Of a DNA stretch of 64,000 bases, positions 7,164 through 55,381 are shown piece by piece (position 1 is the first letter of the stretch; the number at the start of each line of letters is the position of its first letter). A program made the translations under genes and the position numbers. The notes under the pieces were generated by a model, which was not told the DNA's origin, searched no databases, and was given only the letters and a program-made list of their open reading frames with translations. Source of the DNA: Desulfofarcimen acetoxidans DSM 771 (GTDB lineage Bacteria > Bacillota > Desulfotomaculia > Desulfotomaculales > Desulfofarciminaceae); assembly GCF_000024205.1 (NCBI RefSeq), contig NC_013216.1:3348001-3412000 (forward strand), read 5' to 3'.

Positions 7164-8135
7164 ATGAATCGAAGCACTTATTTTAATTATATTGAAGAAA
7201 AGATTGAATTGTTGTCGCTTCGCATTAATAAGCGAGGCAAAATAAACTTATTAGATTTAAATATATATTCCGAAACCTTTTTTGCTGATATGATTAGTAT
7301 TCTTTTTAAGTGGAAGCTAAAAAACATTAATGCGTTTCAGCAAAATATGGAAGGAATTGATTTGATTGATGAGAGTAACGGATTAATTGCACAAGTTTCT
7401 TCAACCTGCACAAAGCAAAAGATAGAGGATTCACTCAAGAAGGAAATATTTAAAAAATATCCTGACTTTCGGTATAAGTTTGTAGCAATTGCAGGTAATG
7501 CCAACAAACTTAGAAGTTTGGCTTTTTCGAATCCACACAAAGTTGTTTTTTCTCCGCAGAATGACATTTTTGATATTAAGTCAATTTTGAATACTGTTCT
7601 AAATATGAATATTGATGAGCAACGCGATTTTTATGTTTTTATTAAAAAAGAGTTAGGGAATGAATTTGATGCAGTGAAATTTGACAGTAATTTGACCACA
7701 ATAATTCATATTCTATCAAAGGAAGATTTAACTAGAGTAAATGAATACCCTGAAATTAATATATATGAAATAGATAGGAAAATTGAGTTTAACGATCTAA
7801 CTTCTGTACGTTTGACAATCGATGAGTACAAAATATATTATGGAAAGTTAGATGAGAAATATAAAGAATTTGATAGACAAGGTGTAAACAAGAGCTTGTC
7901 TGTTTTTTTGATAATTAAGCAACAGTATGTTAAGCTGTCAAAAAATGCCTCGAGTTCTCATGATTTGTTTTTTTCAATCATTGATAGTGTAATAAAGATA
8001 ATAATGGAAAGTAAAAATTATACAGCGATTCCATATGAAGAACTAGAAATGTGTGCATCCATTCTCACTGTAGACGCATTTGTTCGATGCAAAATATTTA
8101 AGAATCCGGAGGGATATAATCATGTTGCTTCCTGA
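7164..8135 (+). CDS. SMEK-domain protein of an ABC-3C conflict system
   Basis: 323 aa from the ATG at 7164 (GGAGGAATCAACT before it); the longer frame from 7110 lacks a ribosome-binding site. Residues 1-110 (STYFNYIEEKIELL, ETFFADMISILF, NMEGIDLIDESNGLIAQVSS) match the SMEK domain, a restriction-endonuclease-like effector or sensor domain. The GIDL..D...AQVSS pattern recalls a nuclease-type core with acidic residues and Gln. The C-terminal part is the expected ABC-3C interacting region. The gene overlaps the next by 14 nt, so the three genes form one operon. The role, predicted anti-phage or anti-mobile-element defence, comes from published family analyses by Burroughs, Aravind and colleagues, recalled from memory. 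AT-rich compared with the surrounding conjugative genes. Confidence 0.75.
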   Translation: MNRSTYFNYIEEKIELLSLRINKRGKINLLDLNIYSETFFADMISILFKWKLKNINAFQQNMEGIDLIDESNGLIAQVSSTCTKQKIEDSLKKEIFKKYPDFRYKFVAIAGNANKLRSLAFSNPHKVVFSPQNDIFDIKSILNTVLNMNIDEQRDFYVFIKKELGNEFDAVKFDSNLTTIIHILSKEDLTRVNEYPEINIYEIDRKIEFNDLTSVRLTIDEYKIYYGKLDEKYKEFDRQGVNKSLSVFLIIKQQYVKLSKNASSSHDLFFSIIDSVIKIIMESKNYTAIPYEELEMCASILTVDAFVRCKIFKNPEGYNHVAS

Positions 8136-44110: not shown

Positions 44111-44334
44111 CCTCTAACCGAATCAGAGATTGACCTTGAAACCACACCAATAATAGTATAACATACAAAACTTACTGTGACAAGTAACAGCTGCATTTTG
44201 CAGACTTATCTTCTTAGTATAAGTAGTATCTCCTTAAAATAACTTTTTATTTACCATAATAACTTTGAAATCTTATAGAAATTAATTAATAATACCCATT
44301 CATACACAATTATAGCCCTATTAAACATAACAGG

Positions 44335-44363
44335 TAGACACTTACATATTATTATGATAATAT
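44335..44363 (+). promoter_or_regulatory. Promoter of the 16-codon peptide gene
   Basis: TAGACA (44335-44340), a 17-bp spacer, TAATAT (44358-44363). It is followed by an inverted repeat and the peptide gene. Confidence 0.55.
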
Positions 44364-44368
44364 TTCAG

Positions 44369-44393
44369 AAACTTAGTCATTGTTACTAAGTTT
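44369..44393 (+). promoter_or_regulatory. Inverted repeat between promoter and peptide gene
   Basis: AAACTTAGT and ACTAAGTTT are exact complements around a 7-nt loop. It starts within 6 bp of the -10, so it could be an operator or a 5'-UTR stem that stabilises a short abundant mRNA. Confidence 0.6.
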
Positions 44394-44419
44394 AATAGTT
44401 GAGAAAGGTGGTGATCTTG

Positions 44420-44470
44420 ATGGAAGAGATTCGCAATGAAAATGCTCTGCCCGTTGGAGTAGGTTACTAA
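44420..44470 (+). CDS. 16-residue peptide, candidate RiPP precursor
   Basis: ATG-to-TAA frame encoding MEEIRNENALPVGVGY. An AAAGGTGGTGA Shine-Dalgarno ends 5 nt before the ATG. A promoter-like element lies at 44335-44363, an inverted repeat at 44369-44393 and a hairpin at 44485-44517, so this is a complete short transcription unit with nothing else in it. The acidic front half (MEEIRNEN) looks like a leader and the rear (ALPVGVGY) like a core ending in Tyr. The island it opens continues on the same strand with a radical SAM enzyme that carries a PqqD-like recognition domain; an insertion sequence now lies between them. Precursor status is inferred. I recognise no family. Confidence 0.6.
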   Translation: MEEIRNENALPVGVGY

Positions 44471-44484
44471 TTTTCTCTTAGAGT

Positions 44485-44517
44485 ATGAGAGTTCGGGGAA
44501 TTCCTCCGAACTCTCAT
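44485..44517 (+). terminator. Strong hairpin after the peptide gene
   Basis: ATGAGAGTTCGG and CCGAACTCTCAT pair over 12 bp, with extra GG/CC pairing inside, starting 15 nt after the TAA. There is little T tract on the plus strand, so it may act as an RNA stabiliser and partial terminator, giving more peptide than enzyme mRNA. Confidence 0.65.
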
Positions 44518-44767
44518 TAGTAAGTCTACAAAATTTGCGATATACAAACCATAACATGATTCCATATAAAAAACCATATTTACGAGTATATTCAATAAAC
44601 ATTAATTGCCATATGCAAGTTACAAGATAGACTACAAGAATATGTAAGTGCAATGATCAAGAAAAATTAGATAGATACAAAAAGTGCATATCAAAGAAAC
44701 CTTTATTACGGCATTTTTAAAAAGGTCCAAAGGAACTGAATATGTAAATTAACCCATAAAATATCAT

Positions 44768-46303
44768 TTATGCGGCAAATCTTGCAAGAGCGGGAAAAAT
44801 GTCAGTGATAGACAAGGCTTTTTCCTTAGCCCATGCATCAATAAAAGAACAGAATGAACCAAGAAACACCCTAACTATTCTGCGTTCTTTTGAATAGACG
44901 ACAGCAGATTCAGAGTTAAAATCAATATTAATTCTGTCCCAGACTCTTTCAGTGGTAGAGCGCCTTTTGTAAATCTGTTTCCACTCATCCGAACCTCTTA
45001 CGATAGGAGTAAAGAATCTGGGGTTGTCCATTGTTTTAGTATAAAATGTTTTATTGCTGTGTGCAGGACACTTGATACAGGCGTCACACTGCACAGGGAA
45101 AAGCCACTTTCTTCTGTAGGATTTAGACATAAGGCCCCAGTTGCGTAGTTGGTGTCCTAAACATTTACAGTGGGGGACCCCGTTCTTATCAAGTTCCACA
45201 AGTTCATTGACCACTTCGGGCTTAGAAGAACGGGAATTAAGGTCAATAACAGGTTTGATACCATAATGCATATTCAAAAGATAAAACGCGTTGGCATCAT
45301 AAGCAGAATCAAAAGCAGCAGAATAAAAATTTATTTTCGGATACAAGTCAACAAGCTCTTTAAGTGCATAAACACCGGTTACAGAATCATGACGCTCACC
45401 AGTAACACATTTAATATGGATAGGTAAGCTGTAGAACGAGTCACAAGCCGTAAAGCCATGGAATGTATGGCCATAATAGTATTGCTCATTATAGCTGTCC
45501 CACCCCCATGAGGCAGTGGGGTCAGAGAATAAGCGAGGGCAGTCGCAATGTTCACCTGGTTTTAGCTTGCAGTTGCAAACTTTTTTACCATAGGGGGAAG
45601 CATTAGTAGGCATACAGGTGCCATCACCGGCGGTATTAAATTTATTGATGTCTCCAAGGATACCCATAGACAAGGAGGGCATAACAAAAACCTCCTTTAG
45701 GATATGATTTAAAGTAGTTTCCAGATTATCAGGAAGTTTGGAGTTATTTATACTTTAAGACTCTATCCACCAAGCGATTAACCACGCCGGGCTTTGAAGA
45801 ATCCATTTTCTTATTTTTCTTTTGCTTCTCTTTAGGCTTGCGCTTAGACTTACGCAGTTTGGATTTGTAAAGAATGCGGTCTTTACGGATCAGCCTATCC
45901 ATAAAATCATAAAAAGTACCAACACCCGGAATAGGATCCGCCGGAATATCGCTAACTTTGCCGGAAGAAAAGCAAGCAGGCAAAAAACCAGACAAAATAG
46001 CATAAACGGGATCGGACTTTAAAGTATCCACCCACTTGGCAATGCTGGTTTCACCCGTAAGTGTCATAAGGATAAGCGAGCGAAACATGGCAACCGGATC
46101 TTTGGGGGGAGCTCCCCGATTAGAGCTTGAATACTGGCTTTTAATAAGCATAACAATGCCGGTAAGATCAGCAGTCCACAGTTTAGTAATTAGAGAAGAC
46201 CTGGTTAAGAGAGTAATATACTGACCGGTCGAAATATAATAACGGGTTAGAAAGTCTGAACAAAATCTTGATACTGCTCATGAACATACTTGACAACTAA
46301 CAT
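44768..46303 (-). pseudogene. Insertion-sequence DDE transposase, two frameshifts
   Basis: Three consecutive pieces of one protein in shifting frames. An ATG at 46303 opens MLVVKYVHEQYQDFVQTF and is shifted near 46258. It continues as LTRYYISTGQYITLLTRSSL through GAPPKDPVAMFRSLILMTLT and GVGTFYDFMDRLIRKDR to a stop at 45744. In the next frame NNSKLPDNLETTLNHILKEV leads into the C-terminal part (FYSAAFDSAYDANAFYLLNM, YKRRSTTERVWDRINIDFNS) to 44768. The FDSAYDA and RRSTTERVWDR segments look like DDE catalytic regions of IS4/IS1182-like transposases; the exact family is uncertain. I could not find terminal inverted repeats by eye. No longer mobile by itself. Confidence 0.75.
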
Positions 46304-46581
46304 AAAACTACTCCCAAAGGACTATTTATAGGAAATATCTTCTAATGTCCATTATGGGGCGATTTCGAATTTGTCAAGTGACAAAAAACACGTATAAGCC
46401 GTTATATGGCTAAAATAGGATGATAAATATCGCCTATAATAGCTAATATATAATATTTAGCCACAATCCAAAACTTATGGTTTTTTGAGGTGAAGCTAAA
46501 AAGGCAAAAAATAAAGCCTTTAGTTTTAAGGCTTCAAGACTTTTCGAATGTACACTAATTTACCAAACAGAGGTGATTATT

Positions 46582-48240
46582 TTGAGCTTGGATGTTCTTT
46601 TGATAAACCCTCCCTTTAGACTATTGCCACCTTTCAAATATAAATTAATTGATCCTCCTCGAAATCTAGCTTTACTAGCTGCCGTTCTCAGAGAAAATAA
46701 CTACAGTGTTAGAATACTAGATATGCCTATTGAAGAACTTGATTTCGAATCAATAGCCCCCACCTTACAGAAACTAGAACCGAGAATAGTTGGTATATTA
46801 AACAGATCCAGCTATAGTTTTCCCATAGTCTGTAAAGTTGCTAAAATAGTAAAGGAGTTTTCCAATAACATTATAGTAACAGTTGGAGGCACATATGTAT
46901 CATATATGCCTGAAGAAGCTCTTAACACCTGTCACGATATTGATATAGTAGTTATGGGTGAAGGGGAAGTTCCTTTATTAAAATTAGTGAGTAACGTTTT
47001 ATTAAATCAAGAGTACGAAAACATAGAAGGATTAGCTTACCGTAAGAATAACGATGTAATTAAAATTGGGGGTCCTATTCCGGTAGACCTAAGTACAGTA
47101 CCATTACCAGCTATAGACTTAATCCCTACTCCTCTTTATGTTGCCAGAAGAGAAAGATATATACTTGAACTAAGCCGTGGCTGCACAAACGCCTGTCCTT
47201 ATTGCACTTCTTCTTTCATAAAAAAGCATGTTCGCTATCGTGATTGTGTTCAGATAATTAGTGAGATTGAACAAGCATATAAAGCAGGTTTCAGAAAATT
47301 TTATTTTGTTGATGATGTTTTTCTTAACAATAAACCTTTAGTTATAGAGGTCTGTCGGGAAATTGTTAATAATAAATTTGATATAACTTGGCCTTGCATG
47401 TCTCGAATTGATCATATAGACGAAGAGACTCTTTACTGGATGAAACTTGCGGGGTGTGAGATTATCGCCTTTGGAATAGAGACTGTTTCTCAAAATACCT
47501 TAGAGCAAATTGGAAAATCAGACTTATCCGATAAAATTCAAAATACTTTTGCTACAGTTAAAAAACATGGAATAAGGGCACTTGCTTTTGTAATGTTTGG
47601 AATGCCCTTAAGCACGTTAAGGGATGAATTGCTCACAATAAACTTCCTTTCGAGATTACAACCTGATGCAATAGGTGTTTTTAGCTTTAAACCATATCCC
47701 GGAACAGTATACTACTTTGATCCAGAAAAATACGGTTTAAATATTACCGACAGAAATCTGAGTCGCTGGTCACAGCTTGACGAACCTACACATGAAACGA
47801 AACATTTAACAAGAGAAGAAATTATTGAGTGTATGGTAGTATGCAATTATATATTCAGAACAGGTGGTACCTTTTCTATAGGAGATAAATACAGGCGACG
47901 TCGTGGTGTACAAGTTTTTAAAACTGGGGAAGGGGGCATTTTATATAATCCTTACCTACCACCTGAGAAAAGAAAAACAGACATGTATCTAAACTGCATA
48001 AAATTAACACCAGTTAATTATCAAATCTTGTATCATCTTGATGGCTACCATACTGTAGACGAGATTTCAAGCCTTATTCAGAAATTGGAGAATATCTCTC
48101 AGGCGCAAGCTAAAAACCACATAGAGGAATGTTTATCCAAAGCAATGGAACTGGAACTAATCGAATTAATACCTGATATTATGGCCGGAAATGATACTTT
48201 TAACAGGGGGGCTTTAATCTATGGTGGCGGATTAGTATAA
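46582..48240 (+). CDS. B12-binding radical SAM enzyme with C-terminal PqqD-like domain
   Basis: 552 aa from TTG 46582 (AGAGGTGA upstream; GTG 46573 is an alternative). Residues 1-150 are a cobalamin-binding Rossmann-like domain (LINPPFRLLPP, NLALLAAVLRENNYSVRILD, VGGTYVSYMPEEAL, VMGEGEVPLLKL). The radical SAM core has CTNACPYC with Cys201, Cys205 and Cys208 binding the 4Fe-4S cluster, then FYFVDDVFL and GCEIIAFGIETVSQNTLEQI. Residues about 475-540 (LTPVNYQILYHLDGYHTVDE, then ISQAQAKNHIEECLSKAMEL) have the winged-helix pattern of PqqD/RiPP recognition elements. Such fusions usually modify ribosomal peptides (methylation or C-C bond chemistry). The substrate is not proven. Confidence 0.85.
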   Translation: MSLDVLLINPPFRLLPPFKYKLIDPPRNLALLAAVLRENNYSVRILDMPIEELDFESIAPTLQKLEPRIVGILNRSSYSFPIVCKVAKIVKEFSNNIIVTVGGTYVSYMPEEALNTCHDIDIVVMGEGEVPLLKLVSNVLLNQEYENIEGLAYRKNNDVIKIGGPIPVDLSTVPLPAIDLIPTPLYVARRERYILELSRGCTNACPYCTSSFIKKHVRYRDCVQIISEIEQAYKAGFRKFYFVDDVFLNNKPLVIEVCREIVNNKFDITWPCMSRIDHIDEETLYWMKLAGCEIIAFGIETVSQNTLEQIGKSDLSDKIQNTFATVKKHGIRALAFVMFGMPLSTLRDELLTINFLSRLQPDAIGVFSFKPYPGTVYYFDPEKYGLNITDRNLSRWSQLDEPTHETKHLTREEIIECMVVCNYIFRTGGTFSIGDKYRRRRGVQVFKTGEGGILYNPYLPPEKRKTDMYLNCIKLTPVNYQILYHLDGYHTVDEISSLIQKLENISQAQAKNHIEECLSKAMELELIELIPDIMAGNDTFNRGALIYGGGLV

Positions 48241-48284
48241 TCCACGGCTATAATTAGTTTCTTATAACAAAGGAGGTTTTATCT

Positions 48285-48716
48285 TTGTCACGTATCGGTA
48301 TTATAAATTGCTCAAATATAGCTGGAGAGTTGGATTGTGCAGCTGTAGTTTGCTTGGGAGACATGAGAAAGAGAAAAGGTTTTTTTAATAGCTATAGTAA
48401 AGAAGAATCCCTGGAACTGATAGGTATTATTTCTTGTGCCGGTTGCCCAACTGCAATCTTTCCCGAAAAAATATTACGAAAAGTCGATGCCATTGCAAGT
48501 TTTCGTGTTGACGCTATTCACTTTAGCTATTGCATGGTAAACTTATGTCCGTTTATAAATAAATATGTTGATGTTATATCAGCAGTTTACCCTGACATCA
48601 AACTGGTTATGGGTACTCATACCCCGCATGATAAAGATAAATTTCATAGCAGTGTTAAGAAATGTCTAACTCGTGTAGGCAAGAATGCTACGGATATCAT
48701 TAAAGGTAATGTTTAA
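48285..48716 (+). CDS. CGGC-domain Cys-rich putative metal-binding protein
   Basis: 143 aa from TTG 48285 (AAAGGAGGTTTTATC). IGIINCSNIAGELDCAAVVC opens the protein, and ISCAGCPTAIFPEKILRKVD contains the CxxC of the CGGC domain (PF08821). VDAIHFSYCMVNLCPF and GTHTPHDKDKF follow; seven or more Cys are conserved-looking. CGGC proteins are predicted metal-binding, with no established role. It lies 45 bp after the radical SAM gene, probably the same operon, so an accessory role (Fe-S or metal supply, or peptide handling) is possible. Confidence 0.75.
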   Translation: MSRIGIINCSNIAGELDCAAVVCLGDMRKRKGFFNSYSKEESLELIGIISCAGCPTAIFPEKILRKVDAIASFRVDAIHFSYCMVNLCPFINKYVDVISAVYPDIKLVMGTHTPHDKDKFHSSVKKCLTRVGKNATDIIKGNV

Positions 48717-48749
48717 ACTACTAAATTTGGAAGTGGTGGAAAGCATACT

Positions 48750-50057
48750 ATGTTAAATCTACAAGAACAGTGCCCTAATACTTTACGTAAAACGTTAAAT
48801 GTCGGAAAATCCGTGGGACTGGTTGTTGGTTCCGTACTTGGTTCAGGACTTATGATACTTCCCGGAATTACTTATTATCAAGTAGGTGTACATTCATTTT
48901 ATTGCTGGTTGGGAATGGGATTACTCATAATCCCATTCCTTTTCGTATTCTCAAGAATAATGATTAAATATCCTTCTGCGGGTGGACTGGTTAATTTAGT
49001 TTATCTTATACTAGGTGATAAAATTGGTTTAGCTATTACTTACGCAATAATCTTGTCCTTAATTATGTTGGTACCTATTGTTGCCGTAATCGGTGCGAAT
49101 TATGTTTGTTATATTGGCAACTTCAATGCTAATTATAATATTTTTATAGCGTGGATTCTTCTTTTTATTTTTACAGTAATAAATACTTTTGACACAAAAA
49201 TATCATTAAAAATTCAAGGTGTAACTTCTATACTTTTATTATTTCTGCTTTTTATAATAATTTTAGCAACACTATCTGGTTCTAGTGAAAAATTTTTTCA
49301 AAAAGTAATAATAAATTTCTCAGAGGATGATATTAAAAAGATATGGTCTGGAATGACACTTGTATTTTGGGCTTTTCTTGGTTGGGAAAATTTATCTTTT
49401 ACTACTGAAGAGTACAAAAATATAAAATGCGATTTTAATTATGTAATTATTTTCAGTTATCTTATTATGATGTTTCTTTACCTGGGTTTGAGCGCAGGTG
49501 TAATTATATCTTTAGATACAAATAATCCTACAACAATTAGCGCGCCTTTGGCTGAAGCAGCTCATGTTGCAATGGGTTCTTATTCTGGTATTGCTGTAGC
49601 AATTATTGCTGTTCTTATAATGCTTATAAATATTAACGCCTGGGTATGGGGACCTTCAAGATTAGTTTTTGATGCGGGACGAAAAAATATTCTCCCCAGT
49701 ATTTTTGCCAAGTTAAACAATAATTTTACGCCTTATTATGCACTTCATGGGTTATTATTTTTATATACTCTTGCACTTGTGTTAATTTTTTTTATTGGAC
49801 AGGAATTTATAACCCTATCAATTAAACAGGTAAACTGCGTATTTCTAATTTTGTATTTATTAACAGTCGTAGCTTATATTAAAGAAAGCGATACAATATA
49901 TTCCAAAATTATTGGATTGTTTACTGCTGTTTCAATATTATTTTTTTTACAAAAGTTTGGAATTTATTTAATACTACCGTCTATTTTTTTTATTATCTAT
50001 GTTATCGTGATTCCATTTTTCAGAAAATCAGCTTCGCAGTGCAAAGAAGCTAAATGA
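48750..50057 (+). CDS. APC-superfamily amino-acid permease
   Basis: 435 aa with about 12 membrane helices. TM1 motif VGLVVGSVLGSGLMILPG is the APC helix-break substrate site. FWAFLGWENLSFTTEEYKN and INAWVWGPSRLVFDAGRKNI are conserved APC regions. It could export or import the peptide product or its amino-acid parts. 33 bp after the CGGC gene, RBS GTGGTGG. Substrate unknown. Confidence 0.85.
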   Translation: MLNLQEQCPNTLRKTLNVGKSVGLVVGSVLGSGLMILPGITYYQVGVHSFYCWLGMGLLIIPFLFVFSRIMIKYPSAGGLVNLVYLILGDKIGLAITYAIILSLIMLVPIVAVIGANYVCYIGNFNANYNIFIAWILLFIFTVINTFDTKISLKIQGVTSILLLFLLFIIILATLSGSSEKFFQKVIINFSEDDIKKIWSGMTLVFWAFLGWENLSFTTEEYKNIKCDFNYVIIFSYLIMMFLYLGLSAGVIISLDTNNPTTISAPLAEAAHVAMGSYSGIAVAIIAVLIMLININAWVWGPSRLVFDAGRKNILPSIFAKLNNNFTPYYALHGLLFLYTLALVLIFFIGQEFITLSIKQVNCVFLILYLLTVVAYIKESDTIYSKIIGLFTAVSILFFLQKFGIYLILPSIFFIIYVIVIPFFRKSASQCKEAK

Positions 50058-50375
50058 AATACAAACCCTTAGGAGGAGCAGGGAGGAAATCCCTACTGTC
50101 TATTATTTATAAGCATCTTCAAGAAATAATTCAATAATCCGACCATATATGGAAGGATTTATTTTATTATTGTAGAAAATATGTATGAAGAATAGTAGAT
50201 GAATACAAATGCGGTTTCCGTTCTCCTAAAGAGACTATTCTTATTACGCAATAAACAAGGTTATATTCATTAGACTAGTGTAGGATGGCAAACATGACCT
50301 TTTTAGACTCCCAATGACCCTATTGGACATAATAAGCAGGTATTTTATTTAAAAAACGTAAGGAGAATAATATTT
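50058..50375. other. Leader region before the agr-type operon
   Basis: 318 bp, AT-rich, no convincing gene. It holds a weak hairpin (CAGGGA/TCCCTACTG-like near 50085) and a possible promoter (TTGGAC near 50332, TAATAA near 50340, short spacing). LytTR-type binding sites would be expected here but I could not recognise a clean pair. Confidence 0.4.
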
Positions 50376-51746
50376 ATGCTGGATCATATGAGCATTTTGC
50401 AACTCTTACTTGTCTCCCTGCCGGAAGCCGTTTTATTGGCGGCGTTAGGCTTTACCTTAATAAACTTCCAGCCACACCTGCGGCAATTATTACTAATAGG
50501 CATATTCCAGACATTTGCTTCCTATATTGTAAGGGCATCTAAATTATCTTTCGGCCTGCACACTATATTACTACTTTTAGTCTTTATTCTAATAATTCAT
50601 TTAGTGACCCATTTGAAAGTTTTTGTTTCATCGCTGGTAGGCTTACTAGGGTTTACTACTATAGCTCTAATAGAGGCATTATATGTTCCGCAGTTATTAA
50701 AGATAACCGGTTACACGATTGCAGAAATTCTCAATCACCCCATTATGAGAATTTATTTTTTTATCCCAGAAACAGGATTACTTTTAATGATTATATTATT
50801 GTGTCGACACTTTAACATCAATATTATGTCATACTTGGAGAGAAAAAAGACACAGGTATCAGTTGCATTAATGAAGAAAAATAATTTCGGTAATAATAAT
50901 TTTAATAAGGAATACTTCTTACCGATTACTTTAATTCTTTTATCAATTTGCTTATTAGCGATGTTAAGTAATACTTTTGTTTTTTTTCGATCAGTTTTAC
51001 TCAAGGACTCATTTATAAATATATTCTCAACTTTCATTGTTCTTGGAATTACTGTATTAATATGCTTATTGGTAATAATATTGAAAAATATTGCAGGAAT
51101 GATCGATATACAGCATAAAGCAAAAAAAACAAAAAAAACACTATCCCTTATAGAAGAATTGGTCTACACCATCCGCAAAAAACGCCATGACTTCAATCAC
51201 CATCTTCAGGCGGTATACGGTCTCCTCGAAACTGGTTTTCAACTGGAGGCCAGGGATTACATCAGAAAAATATTTTCCCATATAAGTACACATGAAGAAC
51301 TTATTAAGACAGATACCCCTGAGGTAAGTGCTATGCTATATACAAAAATCGGCTTGGCAAAGAAAAATAACATTAATCTCGAAATAATAATTGAGAATAG
51401 TTTAAAGGATTTACCACTTAGTTTCGAGGAAACTAACTCCATACTTGGTAACCTTATCGATAACGCTATGGAGGCAACCAATATTATCAATGTTGAGAAA
51501 CGCAATATAACTATTGAGCTAACCCGTAACTCTGAGGGATTCTGTTTTGAAGTAACTAACCAAGGTAAATTAATTAAACCAGAAATTATCAATGAAATAT
51601 TCAAACCTCAATTTTCAACAAAGGAGGGGCGACCCGGTTTAGGGTTGTCTATCGTTGAGGAAATAGTAAAACAATACAATGGAACTATAACAGCGTTTTC
51701 AAATAACAAAAATACAACCTTATCCATTTTTATACCAAAGAGGTGA
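50376..51746 (+). CDS. AgrC-like sensor histidine kinase
   Basis: 456 aa, GTAAGGAGAATAATATTT before ATG. Residues 1-245 hold six or seven membrane helices. The dimerisation/phospho-acceptor region KKRHDFNHHLQAVYGLLETG contains His271. A GHKL ATPase follows with FEETNSILGNLIDNAMEATN (N box) and GRPGLGLSIVEEIVKQYNGT (G box). This is the HPK10/AgrC layout for cyclic peptide sensing at the membrane. Cotranscribed with agrB, agrD and the LytTR regulator. Confidence 0.88.
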   Translation: MLDHMSILQLLLVSLPEAVLLAALGFTLINFQPHLRQLLLIGIFQTFASYIVRASKLSFGLHTILLLLVFILIIHLVTHLKVFVSSLVGLLGFTTIALIEALYVPQLLKITGYTIAEILNHPIMRIYFFIPETGLLLMIILLCRHFNINIMSYLERKKTQVSVALMKKNNFGNNNFNKEYFLPITLILLSICLLAMLSNTFVFFRSVLLKDSFINIFSTFIVLGITVLICLLVIILKNIAGMIDIQHKAKKTKKTLSLIEELVYTIRKKRHDFNHHLQAVYGLLETGFQLEARDYIRKIFSHISTHEELIKTDTPEVSAMLYTKIGLAKKNNINLEIIIENSLKDLPLSFEETNSILGNLIDNAMEATNIINVEKRNITIELTRNSEGFCFEVTNQGKLIKPEIINEIFKPQFSTKEGRPGLGLSIVEEIVKQYNGTITAFSNNKNTTLSIFIPKR

Positions 51747-51751
51747 TATAT

Positions 51752-52399
51752 TTGCTGAGTCTCTATAACCTGTCAGATAAAATAGCCAGATATTTAACCG
51801 AAATTACAGCATGTAATCCAAATGAGACTGATACCGTACGGTATGGTTTGGAAATTATTCTGGGCGCAATGATAAAAGGAATAACCCTTTTTTCGATAGC
51901 TTACTATTGGGGTATACTTCATGAGGTTTCTGCAGTTCTCATTTGCAGCATTTCGTTGCGACTGGTGAGCGGCGGTGCACACTGTAACACTTATTTAAGA
52001 TGCCTGTTTTGTAGTACAATTATCTACCTTTCTGCTGGCAAGGTAGCTATATTTTTGGATAAGGCTTTAGACGAACTTCAATTTATATTAATATTATTGC
52101 CCTGTTTTTTTCTGATGCTTACCAGTGCTTTTCTATGGGCACCTGGAAAAGTGCCATTCAGAATAATCAATTCTAACGAATCACTTATTTTTAAAATACT
52201 TACCGTTTTATTGCTGATTAGCTGGTTGGCTATTGTATTTTGTTATAGCTTGCACTTACAACTATCCATAATAATTGCAGGTTTGCTGGGATTACTAATT
52301 CAGACTTTCAGCTATACTCCTCTTGGCTACAAAGCAATTCAAAAAATTGACGCAATGCTATCAAAAGTAAAAATTACTGTTATGAAAGGAGGTGTCTAA
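51752..52399 (+). CDS. agrB: AgrB-like autoinducer-processing membrane peptidase
   Basis: 215 aa from TTG 51752 (AGAGGTGATATA upstream). In this numbering the catalytic pair is His77 and Cys84 in RLVSGGAHCNTYLRCLFCST, the same spacing and positions as S. aureus AgrB. Five or six membrane helices. Cleaves the C-terminal part of AgrD and forms the thiolactone or lactone. Directly followed by agrD. Confidence 0.9.
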   Translation: MLSLYNLSDKIARYLTEITACNPNETDTVRYGLEIILGAMIKGITLFSIAYYWGILHEVSAVLICSISLRLVSGGAHCNTYLRCLFCSTIIYLSAGKVAIFLDKALDELQFILILLPCFFLMLTSAFLWAPGKVPFRIINSNESLIFKILTVLLLISWLAIVFCYSLHLQLSIIIAGLLGLLIQTFSYTPLGYKAIQKIDAMLSKVKITVMKGGV

Positions 52400-52402
52400 G
52401 AG

Positions 52403-52528
52403 ATGCTCAAATTTAAAAATATACTTTTATCCCCAATCGTTTTTAGTGCTTTGTTTGTAGCTGGTATTGGTATTAAACCAGCTAGCTCAGTATTCTGGTA
52501 TCAGCCAAAACCACCCCAAAACTCGTAG
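52403..52528 (+). CDS. agrD: AgrD-like cyclic-peptide autoinducer precursor with Ser
   Basis: 41 aa, ATG 52403 after GAAAGGAGGTGTCTAAG, whose Shine-Dalgarno lies in agrB. An amphipathic leader (MLKFKNILLSPIVFSALFVA) is followed by GIGIKPASSVFWYQPKPPQN. YQPK-P is the signature just after the ring in clostridial AgrD peptides. No Cys is present; Ser28 or Ser29 occupies the ring position, so the product would be a lactone such as S-V-F-W-Y rather than a thiolactone. The C-terminal tail is short and neutral (PPQNS instead of PEEL). Ring boundaries are inferred from AgrD families. Confidence 0.85.
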   Translation: MLKFKNILLSPIVFSALFVAGIGIKPASSVFWYQPKPPQNS

Positions 52529-52546
52529 ATATAAGGAAGCTAGTTA

Positions 52547-53317
52547 ATGGAAATTACGGTTTTATTGGCAGATGATGATCCGGTTATGTGCAAAATTCTT
52601 AGATCTATCCTGTTAGAATTACCTGATGTAAAAGTTGTTGGCGAAGCACATAACGGTCTAGAAACACTCCGTTTAGTAAAAAAACTGGAACCCCAGATCG
52701 TTTTTCTGGATATTGCTATGCCTCAAAAGGATGGCCTGGAGATAGCTCAGGAAATTCGTATTATTATGCCCATGACTATTATCATATTTGCAACCGCATA
52801 TGAAAACTACACTCACGAAGCATTTGAAGTATATGCTTTTGATTACTTAATAAAACCTTATAGAATTAATCGAATATACAAAACCATTGAGCGCATTAAA
52901 TTTTGGTTTGGTACAGAAAATAAGCCTAATGATATATTCAGCGATAAAGCAAGGTCTGAAATCCGTGAATCAATAATAGTGGTAAAGGAATACGGAAAGA
53001 ATATATTTATAAATTTAAAGGACATTATATTTATAACAAGAGATGCACGTTTTACAACCATACACTTCATAGGCGGTATTATTAAAACCTCAGAAACATT
53101 AGAATTGCTGAATAACAAATTAAATGGAGATTCCTTTTTCCGTTGCCATAGAGGTTATATTATAAATTTAAATATGATAAAAGAGATTCAGCCCTGTGGT
53201 AAAAAAACATTCAAGGTATTTATGAGAAACACTACGGAAACGGTTTTGATGACAAAATCCAAGGCCAGCGCAATAAAAGATTTACTGTTTATTAATAAAA
53301 CAAGGTCACCAAATTGA
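52547..53317 (+). CDS. LytTR-family response regulator (AgrA-like)
   Basis: 256 aa. REC domain: LLADDDPVMCKILRSILLEL with the acidic pocket, phospho-acceptor Asp55 in IVFLDIAMPQKDG, and FDYLIKPYRINRIYKTIERI. LytTR DNA-binding domain at about 145-250 (IFITRDARFTTIHFIGGIIK, FFRCHRGYIINLNMIKEIQP). Partner of the AgrC-like kinase, expected to activate its own operon and possibly the upstream RiPP-like genes. Ends at a perfect terminator. Confidence 0.9.
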   Translation: MEITVLLADDDPVMCKILRSILLELPDVKVVGEAHNGLETLRLVKKLEPQIVFLDIAMPQKDGLEIAQEIRIIMPMTIIIFATAYENYTHEAFEVYAFDYLIKPYRINRIYKTIERIKFWFGTENKPNDIFSDKARSEIRESIIVVKEYGKNIFINLKDIIFITRDARFTTIHFIGGIIKTSETLELLNNKLNGDSFFRCHRGYIINLNMIKEIQPCGKKTFKVFMRNTTETVLMTKSKASAIKDLLFINKTRSPN

Positions 53318-53362
53318 ATTATCCTTTCAATACCATTTTCACTAACCCAAGTTTTGATTGAA

Positions 53363-53405
53363 AACACGAAGAATCCAGCTATAGCTGGATTCTTCGTGTT
53401 TTTTA
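53363..53405. terminator. Terminator of the agr-type operon
   Basis: AACACGAAGAATCCAGCT followed by its exact complement, then TTTTTT. A perfect 38-bp palindrome, the strongest terminator in the window. Confidence 0.9.
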
Positions 53406-53662
53406 GGTTACTACTTTTGCATTTTAGTCTATTTTTAAACCTTTGAGAATGGTAAATACAGGCATCGTTTTGTCTTTTTGTATTTTTGAGCTAGAAAAGC
53501 AAAACTTCGGCTAAGACTATTCAGATACTCACAACCTTTATAGCACTTGATAAAAAGAGCCAATACCGTTTCTGATAGATATAGTATAAGTTCTATAAAA
53601 ACTATAATTGTGATAATAATTTAATGGCTTTTATTTCTTAGAAAAACTTATAATTACAATCA

Positions 53663-55381
53663 CTATAAAGCCATTCCACTTTTAATGAAATCCTTGATGA
53701 AAGACAGAATCTCTTCTTCTTTCAGAAAATGAGTTTTGCCTGACCTTCTCTCCCGAAGCTCCAACAAACCTTCTTCTAAAAACTTTTTGCCTACAGTCAG
53801 GCGCAGCGGGTAGCCTACCAAATCGGCGTCTTTGAACTTTACACCAGGACGCTCGGGGCGGTCATCCAGAACGACCTCCACACCGGACTCAAGGAAGCTG
53901 CGGTACAATACTTCCGATATATCCATCAGTGCCTGATCCTTTACGTTTACCGGCACTATGACCAGATGGAAGGGGGCAATGGCTGCCGGCCAGGTAATAC
54001 CGTTTAGGTCGTTATGCTGCTCGATAGCGGCAGCCATTGTGCGGCTCACACCGATACCGTAACAACCCATAACATAGTGGCGCGTTTTGCCGTTTTCGTC
54101 CTGGAAAGTAGCCTCCAGGGACTTGCTGTATTTATCGCCCAATTTAAATACTTGTCCCACTTCAATACCTTTCGCCTCAGCCAGCACACCGCCGCAGACG
54201 GGACAAGGCTCCCCGGCTTTGACAAAACGAATATCAGCGATTTTGCCGGCTTTAAAATCCCTGCCCGGACATACATTCTTATAATGGTAGTCAGCCTTAT
54301 TGGCACCTGTTACGGCATTAACCATAACCGATACTTCATAATCGGCAATCACCAGCACATTTTTCAGACCAATAGGACCGGCAAAACCCAACGGCGCCCC
54401 GGTTAGTTTAGTCACAATAGCTTCCGAGGCCAGTTCCAGCCTGGCGCAATCTATTACCCGCTGCAATTTAATCTCATTTACATCATGGTCACCGCGCACC
54501 AGCGCCGCAACTACCTCACTTTCAGTTTCGTAAAAGAGAGTTTTAATCAGGCCGGATTCCGGCAGGCCAAGATATTTCGAAATCTGGGCAATAGTTTTTT
54601 GCCCGGGTGTATGCGCTTCTTCCAGGGGCAGCAGCTCAGCAACGGGTTTTGGCAGTTCTGAGGACTGGGCCTTTTCCACATTGGCTGCGTAACTGCAGTT
54701 TTCGTTCTGGCAAAAAACTACCAGAGCCTCTCCCGACTCGGCCAAAACCATGAACTCATGCGTATCGCTGCCGCCGATAGCCCCGGAATCGGCTTCCACC
54801 GGCCGGAATCTGAGACCACAGCGCTGAAAAATACGTACATAGGCATCATACATCTTGCGGTAAGTTATATCCAGGCCCGCCTCATCAGCATCAAAAGAAT
54901 ACAGATCCTTCATAATAAATTCCCGGCCCCTAAGCAATCCAAAACGGGGACGGCGCTCATCCCGGTATTTGTTCTGTATTTGGTAAAGCAATAAAGGCAG
55001 TTGCTTGTAAGAGGACAGCTCACTTTTCACCAGAGCAGTGATAATTTCCTCATGGGTAGGTCCCAGGGCAAAGTCCCGGCCATGCCTATCCTTCAAGCGA
55101 AACAATTCCGGCCCGTAGACATCCCAGCGGCCCGATTCCTGCCATAACTCGGCCGGCTGCATAATAGGCATCAGTATCTCCTGCCCGCCCTGCCTGTCCA
55201 TTTCCTCTCGCACAATCCTTTTTATTTTACTCAATACTCTTTGCGCCAGCGGCAGGTAAGTATAGACACCTGCCGCCGATCTCCTGATATAACCGGCCCG
55301 CAAAAGCAGCTTATGGCTGATTACTTCCGCTTCCGCCGGCGTCTCCCGCAAAGTCGGGATAAGCAGTTGAGATGCTCTCAT
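53663..55381 (-). CDS. proS: Prolyl-tRNA synthetase (bacterial type)
   Basis: 572 aa from ATG 55381 (GGGGAG 6 nt upstream). [20 protein letters not shown], class II motif 2 ([20 protein letters not shown]), the inserted editing domain (about 225-405) and motif 3 ([20 protein letters not shown]), then the anticodon-binding domain. Charges tRNA-Pro. In many Firmicutes polC comes next; here the accessory island does. Confidence 0.96.

Follow-up and report, generated by a model that had tools for sequence, protein, structure and literature searches.

Introduction

Routes from a small peptide to a cofactor through a radical SAM enzyme are known for PQQ and mycofactocin. The PQQ route starts from the tiny PqqA, which carries a functional Tyr, and employs the radical SAM enzyme PqqE and the recognition protein PqqD, while in the mycofactocin route the radical SAM enzyme MftC is of the SPASM type and MftB is PqqD-like. 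The core of the mycofactocin precursor MftA is Val-Tyr, preceded by Gly (PMC7491314), and the cross-linking of PqqA by PqqE together with PqqD has been described in work cited in PMC5682303. Among B12-radical SAM enzymes, PoyC C-methylates Val in a RiPP (PMC5682303), and PbsB cross-links hydroxylated aromatic residues in a RiPP precursor (PMC12257519). RiPP-type products also arise from tiny genes, as in microcin C, whose MccA has only 7 aa, and the biarylitides (PMC6495379, PMC12951456).

Here, we analyzed a 64,000-nucleotide stretch (G000:C1 3348001-3412000, hereafter the window) of the Desulfofarcimen acetoxidans genome (4,545,624 bp, single replicon), in which a 16-codon open reading frame (ORF) lies upstream of a B12-binding radical SAM enzyme. 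Like mycofactocin, the locus combines a putative small precursor with a C-terminal Tyr and Gly-Val ahead of it, a radical SAM enzyme, and a candidate PqqD-type unit. However, the M. smegmatis MftA is 31 aa long with a GVY end, whereas the peptide here has 16 aa and ends in VGY; the enzyme binds B12 while MftC is of the SPASM type, and MftB is a separate protein. MftD, MftE, and MftF are absent from the island's genes and no MftC-type family appears among the best 25 NCBIfam matches, which places the locus outside mycofactocin. The likeness to PQQ lies in the very small precursor with a presumably functional Tyr, the radical SAM enzyme, and the putative PqqD-type recognition, but the peptide lacks the ExxxY Glu-Tyr pair at PQQ spacing, the enzyme belongs to another radical SAM branch, and the island contains no PqqE, PqqB, PqqC, or PqqF and only a weak PqqD-like domain, so that it is not a PQQ locus either. 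The original prediction had compared the peptide with both systems; the C-terminal Tyr keeps its value as an analogy, but membership fails on the enzyme type, because the enzyme comes from another branch of radical SAM proteins, one that is BchE-like and binds cobalamin.

With PoyC and the bottromycin C-methyltransferases, the locus would share the use of B12-binding and radical SAM domains on a ribosomally made peptide, Val being a known target (PMC5682303), but the enzyme here stays below the cut-off of TIGR03975, the model of RiPP B12-radical SAM C-methyltransferases (67.9 and 89.1 bits versus 281.85), carries a C-terminal domain resembling a RiPP recognition element (RRE), and has a 16-aa candidate precursor. 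PbsB is likewise a B12-radical SAM enzyme whose targets are aromatic residues in a RiPP precursor; however, its biphenomycin-like cluster needs an MNIO, an arginase, a hydroxylase, and a protease, all missing here, and its precursor motif is another. Microcin C and the biarylitides differ in that their chemistry is adenylation by MccB or P450-based, not radical SAM, and in having no RRE-B12 enzyme.

Results

A 16-residue peptide is kept unchanged beside one B12-binding radical SAM enzyme

The predicted ORF, 16 sense codons followed by TAA, is present at its predicted place (Table 1). Relatives were sought with the downstream enzyme as the query, which first returned a broken, 74%-identical enzyme fragment from a Desulfovirgula MAG (L011), and then with a two-sequence profile including this fragment, which reached two Desulfobacterales/Deltaproteobacteria MAG contigs (L020 and L021) with a full-length enzyme of 58% identity over 552 aa. 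In both, a 16-codon ORF with a near-perfect Shine-Dalgarno sequence lies 102 nt upstream of the enzyme and encodes exactly MEEIRNENALPVGVGY, so the gene is not the orphan it was taken for. Absence of the peptide beside the enzyme in other genomes would have counted against the original prediction, but it is kept in these two loci, which, being 99.7% identical, were counted as one independent lineage; with the window, there are two.

Table 1. Features of the locus, in window coordinates
Feature	Position	Strand	Evidence or remark
Candidate sigma-70 promoter, TAGACA-17-TAATAT	44335..44363	+	9/12 consensus match
Inverted repeat of the 5' leader, AAACTTAGT-N7-ACTAAGTTT, 9-bp perfect	44369..44393	.	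Only such repeat in the window
Shine-Dalgarno sequence, AAAGGTGGTGA	44404..44414	+	5 nt before ATG; 10/11 to consensus AAAGGAGGTGA
Putative precursor-peptide gene, MEEIRNENALPVGVGY	44420..44470	+	16/16 residues identical in L020 and L021
3' hairpin, 12-bp perfect stem, no U-tract	44485..44517	+	Starts ~14 nt past the stop codon
Decayed insertion sequence with a DUF772 / DDE_Tnp_1 transposase split in two	44768..46151	-	Pfam; repeated DNA to ~46555
B12-binding radical SAM enzyme, 552 aa, TTG start	46582..48240	+	PF02310 and PF04055 above cut-off
PqqD-like candidate RRE, enzyme C-terminus	47899..48162	+	PF05402, E 0.003; TIGR03859, E 0.008; TIGR04248, E 0.004
CGGC-domain protein, core cassette	48285..48716	+	PF08821; 50% identical to L021 11063-11497
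APC-family amino-acid permease, core cassette	48750..50057	+	PF13520; 47% identical to L021 9659-10948
AgrC-like histidine kinase, accessory	50376..51746	+	38% identical to the kinase beside the broken enzyme in L011
AgrB, accessory	51743..52399	+	PF04647
AgrD autoinducer precursor, MLKFKNILLSPIVFSALFVAGIGIKPASSVFWYQPKPPQNS	52403..52528	+	TIGR04223, 28.8 bits vs cut-off 19
LytTR response regulator, accessory	52547..53317	+	PF00072 and PF04397

At the DNA level, the peptide ORF of the window differs from that of the MAG loci at 10 of 51 bases, in 9 of 16 codons, and all 10 substitutions are synonymous. Only 24% of the possible single-base changes in this ORF would be so, which gives p ~8e-7 if substitutions fell at random over coding sites, a figure that transition bias would raise somewhat. 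Identical codons make up 7/16 (44%) of the peptide gene and 46% of the enzyme gene at residues common to both homologues; both genes have thus diverged to the same degree, consistent with joint inheritance. The 16-codon ORF is therefore a real, selected gene under strict protein-level selection.

Close relatives of the enzyme are scarce. The profile search found a full-length one in 1 of 395 sampled Desulfobacterota genomes, in 2 of the 389 genomes from the order of the MAG, and, among 398 genomes of the window's phylum, in the window's genome alone; the whole-collection scan relied on two motifs and may have overlooked members. No close relative turned up in viral contigs or plasmids, and phages had distant radical SAM proteins only. 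A search for small ORFs with a similar ending (PVG[VIM]GY followed by a stop, 113 genomes of the order) recovered the window and otherwise gave one match within a CRISPR-like repeat array, while a looser pattern in the 398 genomes of the phylum gave 8 further matches, none of which is a small gene of this sort running from start to stop. The more remote B12-radical SAM enzymes in the order (29-33% identical) are not accompanied by any comparable tiny ORF that has a strong Shine-Dalgarno sequence, and the string PVGVGY was not found in the literature searched. What is expected of a RiPP precursor, namely, being kept beside its modifying enzyme, is seen here with the same 16 residues and the same enzyme in two phyla. 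The assignment of the peptide as a precursor for the nearby enzyme is thus supported by its presence upstream in every full-length close relative found, by the synonymous-only change, and by the PqqD-like domain of the enzyme.

The leader carries a strong Shine-Dalgarno sequence and a hairpin in both lineages

The ORF had been described as a complete mini transcription unit, and a good part of this description holds: the Shine-Dalgarno sequence scores best among the 559 ATG ORFs of 10-25 codons on both strands of the window, with AAAGGAGGTGA as its counterpart in L020/L021, and the inverted repeat and the 3' hairpin were confirmed as perfect stems. The ends of the unit are less secure, and to call it complete claims more than the sequence supports. 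Local AT-rich DNA contains about twice the chance number of 9/12 promoter matches, so the candidate does not rise above background, and a promoter of the gene's own is plausible but weak by consensus. The hairpin, having no U-tract behind it, is not a canonical terminator. L021 has a hairpin at the same place after the peptide gene (7908-7952), but its sequence is unrelated to that of the window hairpin. An Rfam search of the window gave no match, which lends no support to a known riboswitch or structured RNA. Alternative pairings can also be drawn among the inverted repeat at 44369-44393, the end of the ORF (TTACTAAT), and the flank of the hairpin (ATTAGTAA, 44516-44523), and these might let the leader act as an RNA switch.

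Such an arrangement raises the alternative that the ORF is a regulatory leader peptide, acting by ribosome arrest or attenuation like TnaC, which tunes the enzyme-permease operon to a small molecule and is never modified. We regard this as improbable. The layout would suit it, with a short ORF and then a hairpin ahead of an operon that includes an amino-acid permease, and so would the alternative pairings of the window leader and a leader folding that beats shuffled sequences in both lineages (z of -4.6 in the window, most of it from the 3' hairpin, with the ORF alone at -1.9, and z of -3.0 in L021). However, conservation in arrest peptides is usually limited to some C-terminal residues, whereas all 16 residues are invariant here, the N-terminal half included. 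Furthermore, no U-tract follows the hairpin of either lineage, and the L021 hairpin does not pair with the Shine-Dalgarno sequence of the enzyme, which leaves the hairpins without the marks of a leader-controlled terminator or, in L021, of RBS sequestration. The enzyme, moreover, bears a recognition-like domain typical of peptide substrates.

The enzyme carries a putative PqqD-like domain at its C-terminus

The start of the enzyme was set by alignment with L021, in which the CxxxCxxC motif (C201/C205/C208) is invariant, and with this intact motif, a B12 domain, and a radical SAM domain, the protein belongs to the B12-binding radical SAM superfamily. It is nearest to BchE-like models, although BchE itself reaches only 147 and 158 bits against a cut-off of 481; the best family models (BchE, HpnJ, TIGR04072) are all non-RiPP, and all scores lie far below the curated cut-offs. 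The full-length predicted structure is poor (pLDDT 52), and its N-terminal two thirds match cobalamin radical SAM enzymes such as TsrM (top), MgmA, and OxsB, which indicates only a shared B12-radical SAM architecture.

The last ~110 residues gave weak, sub-threshold PqqD matches independently from both homologues. Compared as a sequence with solved structures, this domain returned nothing significant, but the seven best PDB matches of its low-confidence model (pLDDT 59) all contain an RRE (PqqD, lasso-peptide B1 proteins, SkfB, and CteB), none being individually significant (best E 0.14). It is hard to account for this agreement otherwise, and the domain looks like a PqqD-type RRE. RREs of radical SAM enzymes are generally N-terminal (PMC8326336), and the C-terminal position here is unusual. 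Behind the recognition-like domain, the two homologues close with a nearly invariant tail, NRxxLIxGGGLV (C-terminus of window 46582-48237).

The core cassette lies in an island with accessory agr genes

The unit common to the window and the MAG lineage comprises the peptide, the hairpin, the enzyme, the CGGC protein, and the APC permease, the last two genes standing in opposite order in the two lineages; the same partners thus accompany the 16-residue peptide in two phyla, namely one particular B12-binding radical SAM enzyme, an APC permease, and a CGGC protein. The cassette holds no peptidase and no dedicated peptide exporter, and a link between CGGC domains and radical SAM was not found in the literature searched. 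In the window, an insertion sequence (IS)-related stretch (44518-46555) fits exactly between the hairpin and the enzyme start, partial copies of it occur elsewhere in the genome (G000:C1 3599115-3599930 and 2054761-2054950), and no convincing pair of terminal repeats was found. The 2.1-kb gap between peptide and enzyme is accounted for by this decayed IS of ~2 kb, and because it parts the two genes, the local unit may be decaying.

Apart from the IS, the island (44168-53663) has 30-36% GC versus 46-56% in the flanking translation genes, which we take to be rimP-nusA-infB on one side and proS-ispG on the other; the low GC and the interruption of this neighborhood suggest horizontal acquisition. 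The agr genes do not belong to the core, since the two peptide-bearing MAGs, which may be incomplete, have no AgrB match. The Desulfovirgula contig (L011 1-3623) ends in inverted copies of one sequence, and between them lie an enzyme broken at both its N and C termini and an intact kinase homologous to the window agr kinase; it appears to be the wreck of the same island. The homologous kinase beside the broken enzyme makes quorum control a possible trait of Desulfotomaculia. The AgrD of the window contains no cysteine and ends in ASSVFWYQPKPPQNS, so that the ring residue would have to be serine, giving a lactone instead of a thiolactone.

The nearby agr signaling set, together with the non-RiPP character of the enzyme's best models (none of them close to its cut-off), could be read as pointing to an unmodified extracellular signal or effector, with the enzyme acting on some other substrate, such as a lipid, a porphyrin-like compound, or an amino acid. 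This is highly improbable, because the peptide has no secretion signal and no peptide exporter, the agr set has an AgrD of its own and is missing from the peptide-bearing MAGs, and the RRE-like domain suggests a peptide substrate.

Discussion

The chance that the ORF is fortuitous and its MAG similarity plain DNA conservation is practically nil, even though the MAG loci sit on short metagenomic contigs, because recent transfer or contamination would give near-identical DNA, whereas the codon comparison shows one base in about five of the ORF changed, always synonymously, the flanking DNA has diverged, and the enzymes are little more than half identical. We consider it likely, on the strength of sequence comparison, that the ORF encodes the precursor (substrate), of minimal size, of a RiPP family that is new and very rare, and the peptide is very probably the starting material of a small modified molecule not described before.

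According to this precursor model, the acidic N-terminal half, MEEIRNEN, would be bound by the C-terminal PqqD-like domain of the enzyme, and the C-terminal half, ALPVGVGY, would be the core modified by the cobalamin/radical SAM centre. Our best guesses for this modification are a C-methylated Val or Tyr, or else a Tyr-centred oxidation or cross-link. As the cassette includes no peptidase or peptide exporter, the product would probably be trimmed by housekeeping peptidases, and what is left, a modified amino acid or a peptide of very few residues, would be moved by the amino-acid permease. Owing to the intervening hairpin, precursor transcript is probably made in excess of enzyme transcript, and agr quorum sensing may control production in D. 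acetoxidans. Speculatively, the final product would be very small, given an amino-acid permease but neither a protease nor a peptide exporter, and the complete invariance of the peptide suggests that a single structure is required. A more specific and rather doubtful extension is that the invariant peptide gives a small cofactor- or signal-like molecule of single structure around the C-terminal Val-Gly-Tyr, whose biosynthetic enzyme would be a BchE-like cobalamin radical SAM protein fused to a C-terminal recognition domain and which the permease would handle as a modified amino acid or a di- or tripeptide.

A 16-codon gene is easily missed, and RiPP mining normally depends on annotated precursor genes. 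The precursor is also invariant across phyla, whereas in most antibiotic RiPPs the core varies freely, and because the system is so small (one peptide and one enzyme with its own putative recognition domain), the modification is directly testable. Should the doubtful cofactor-like extension prove true, the locus would represent a further peptide-to-cofactor route beside PQQ and mycofactocin, one that proceeds through B12 chemistry.
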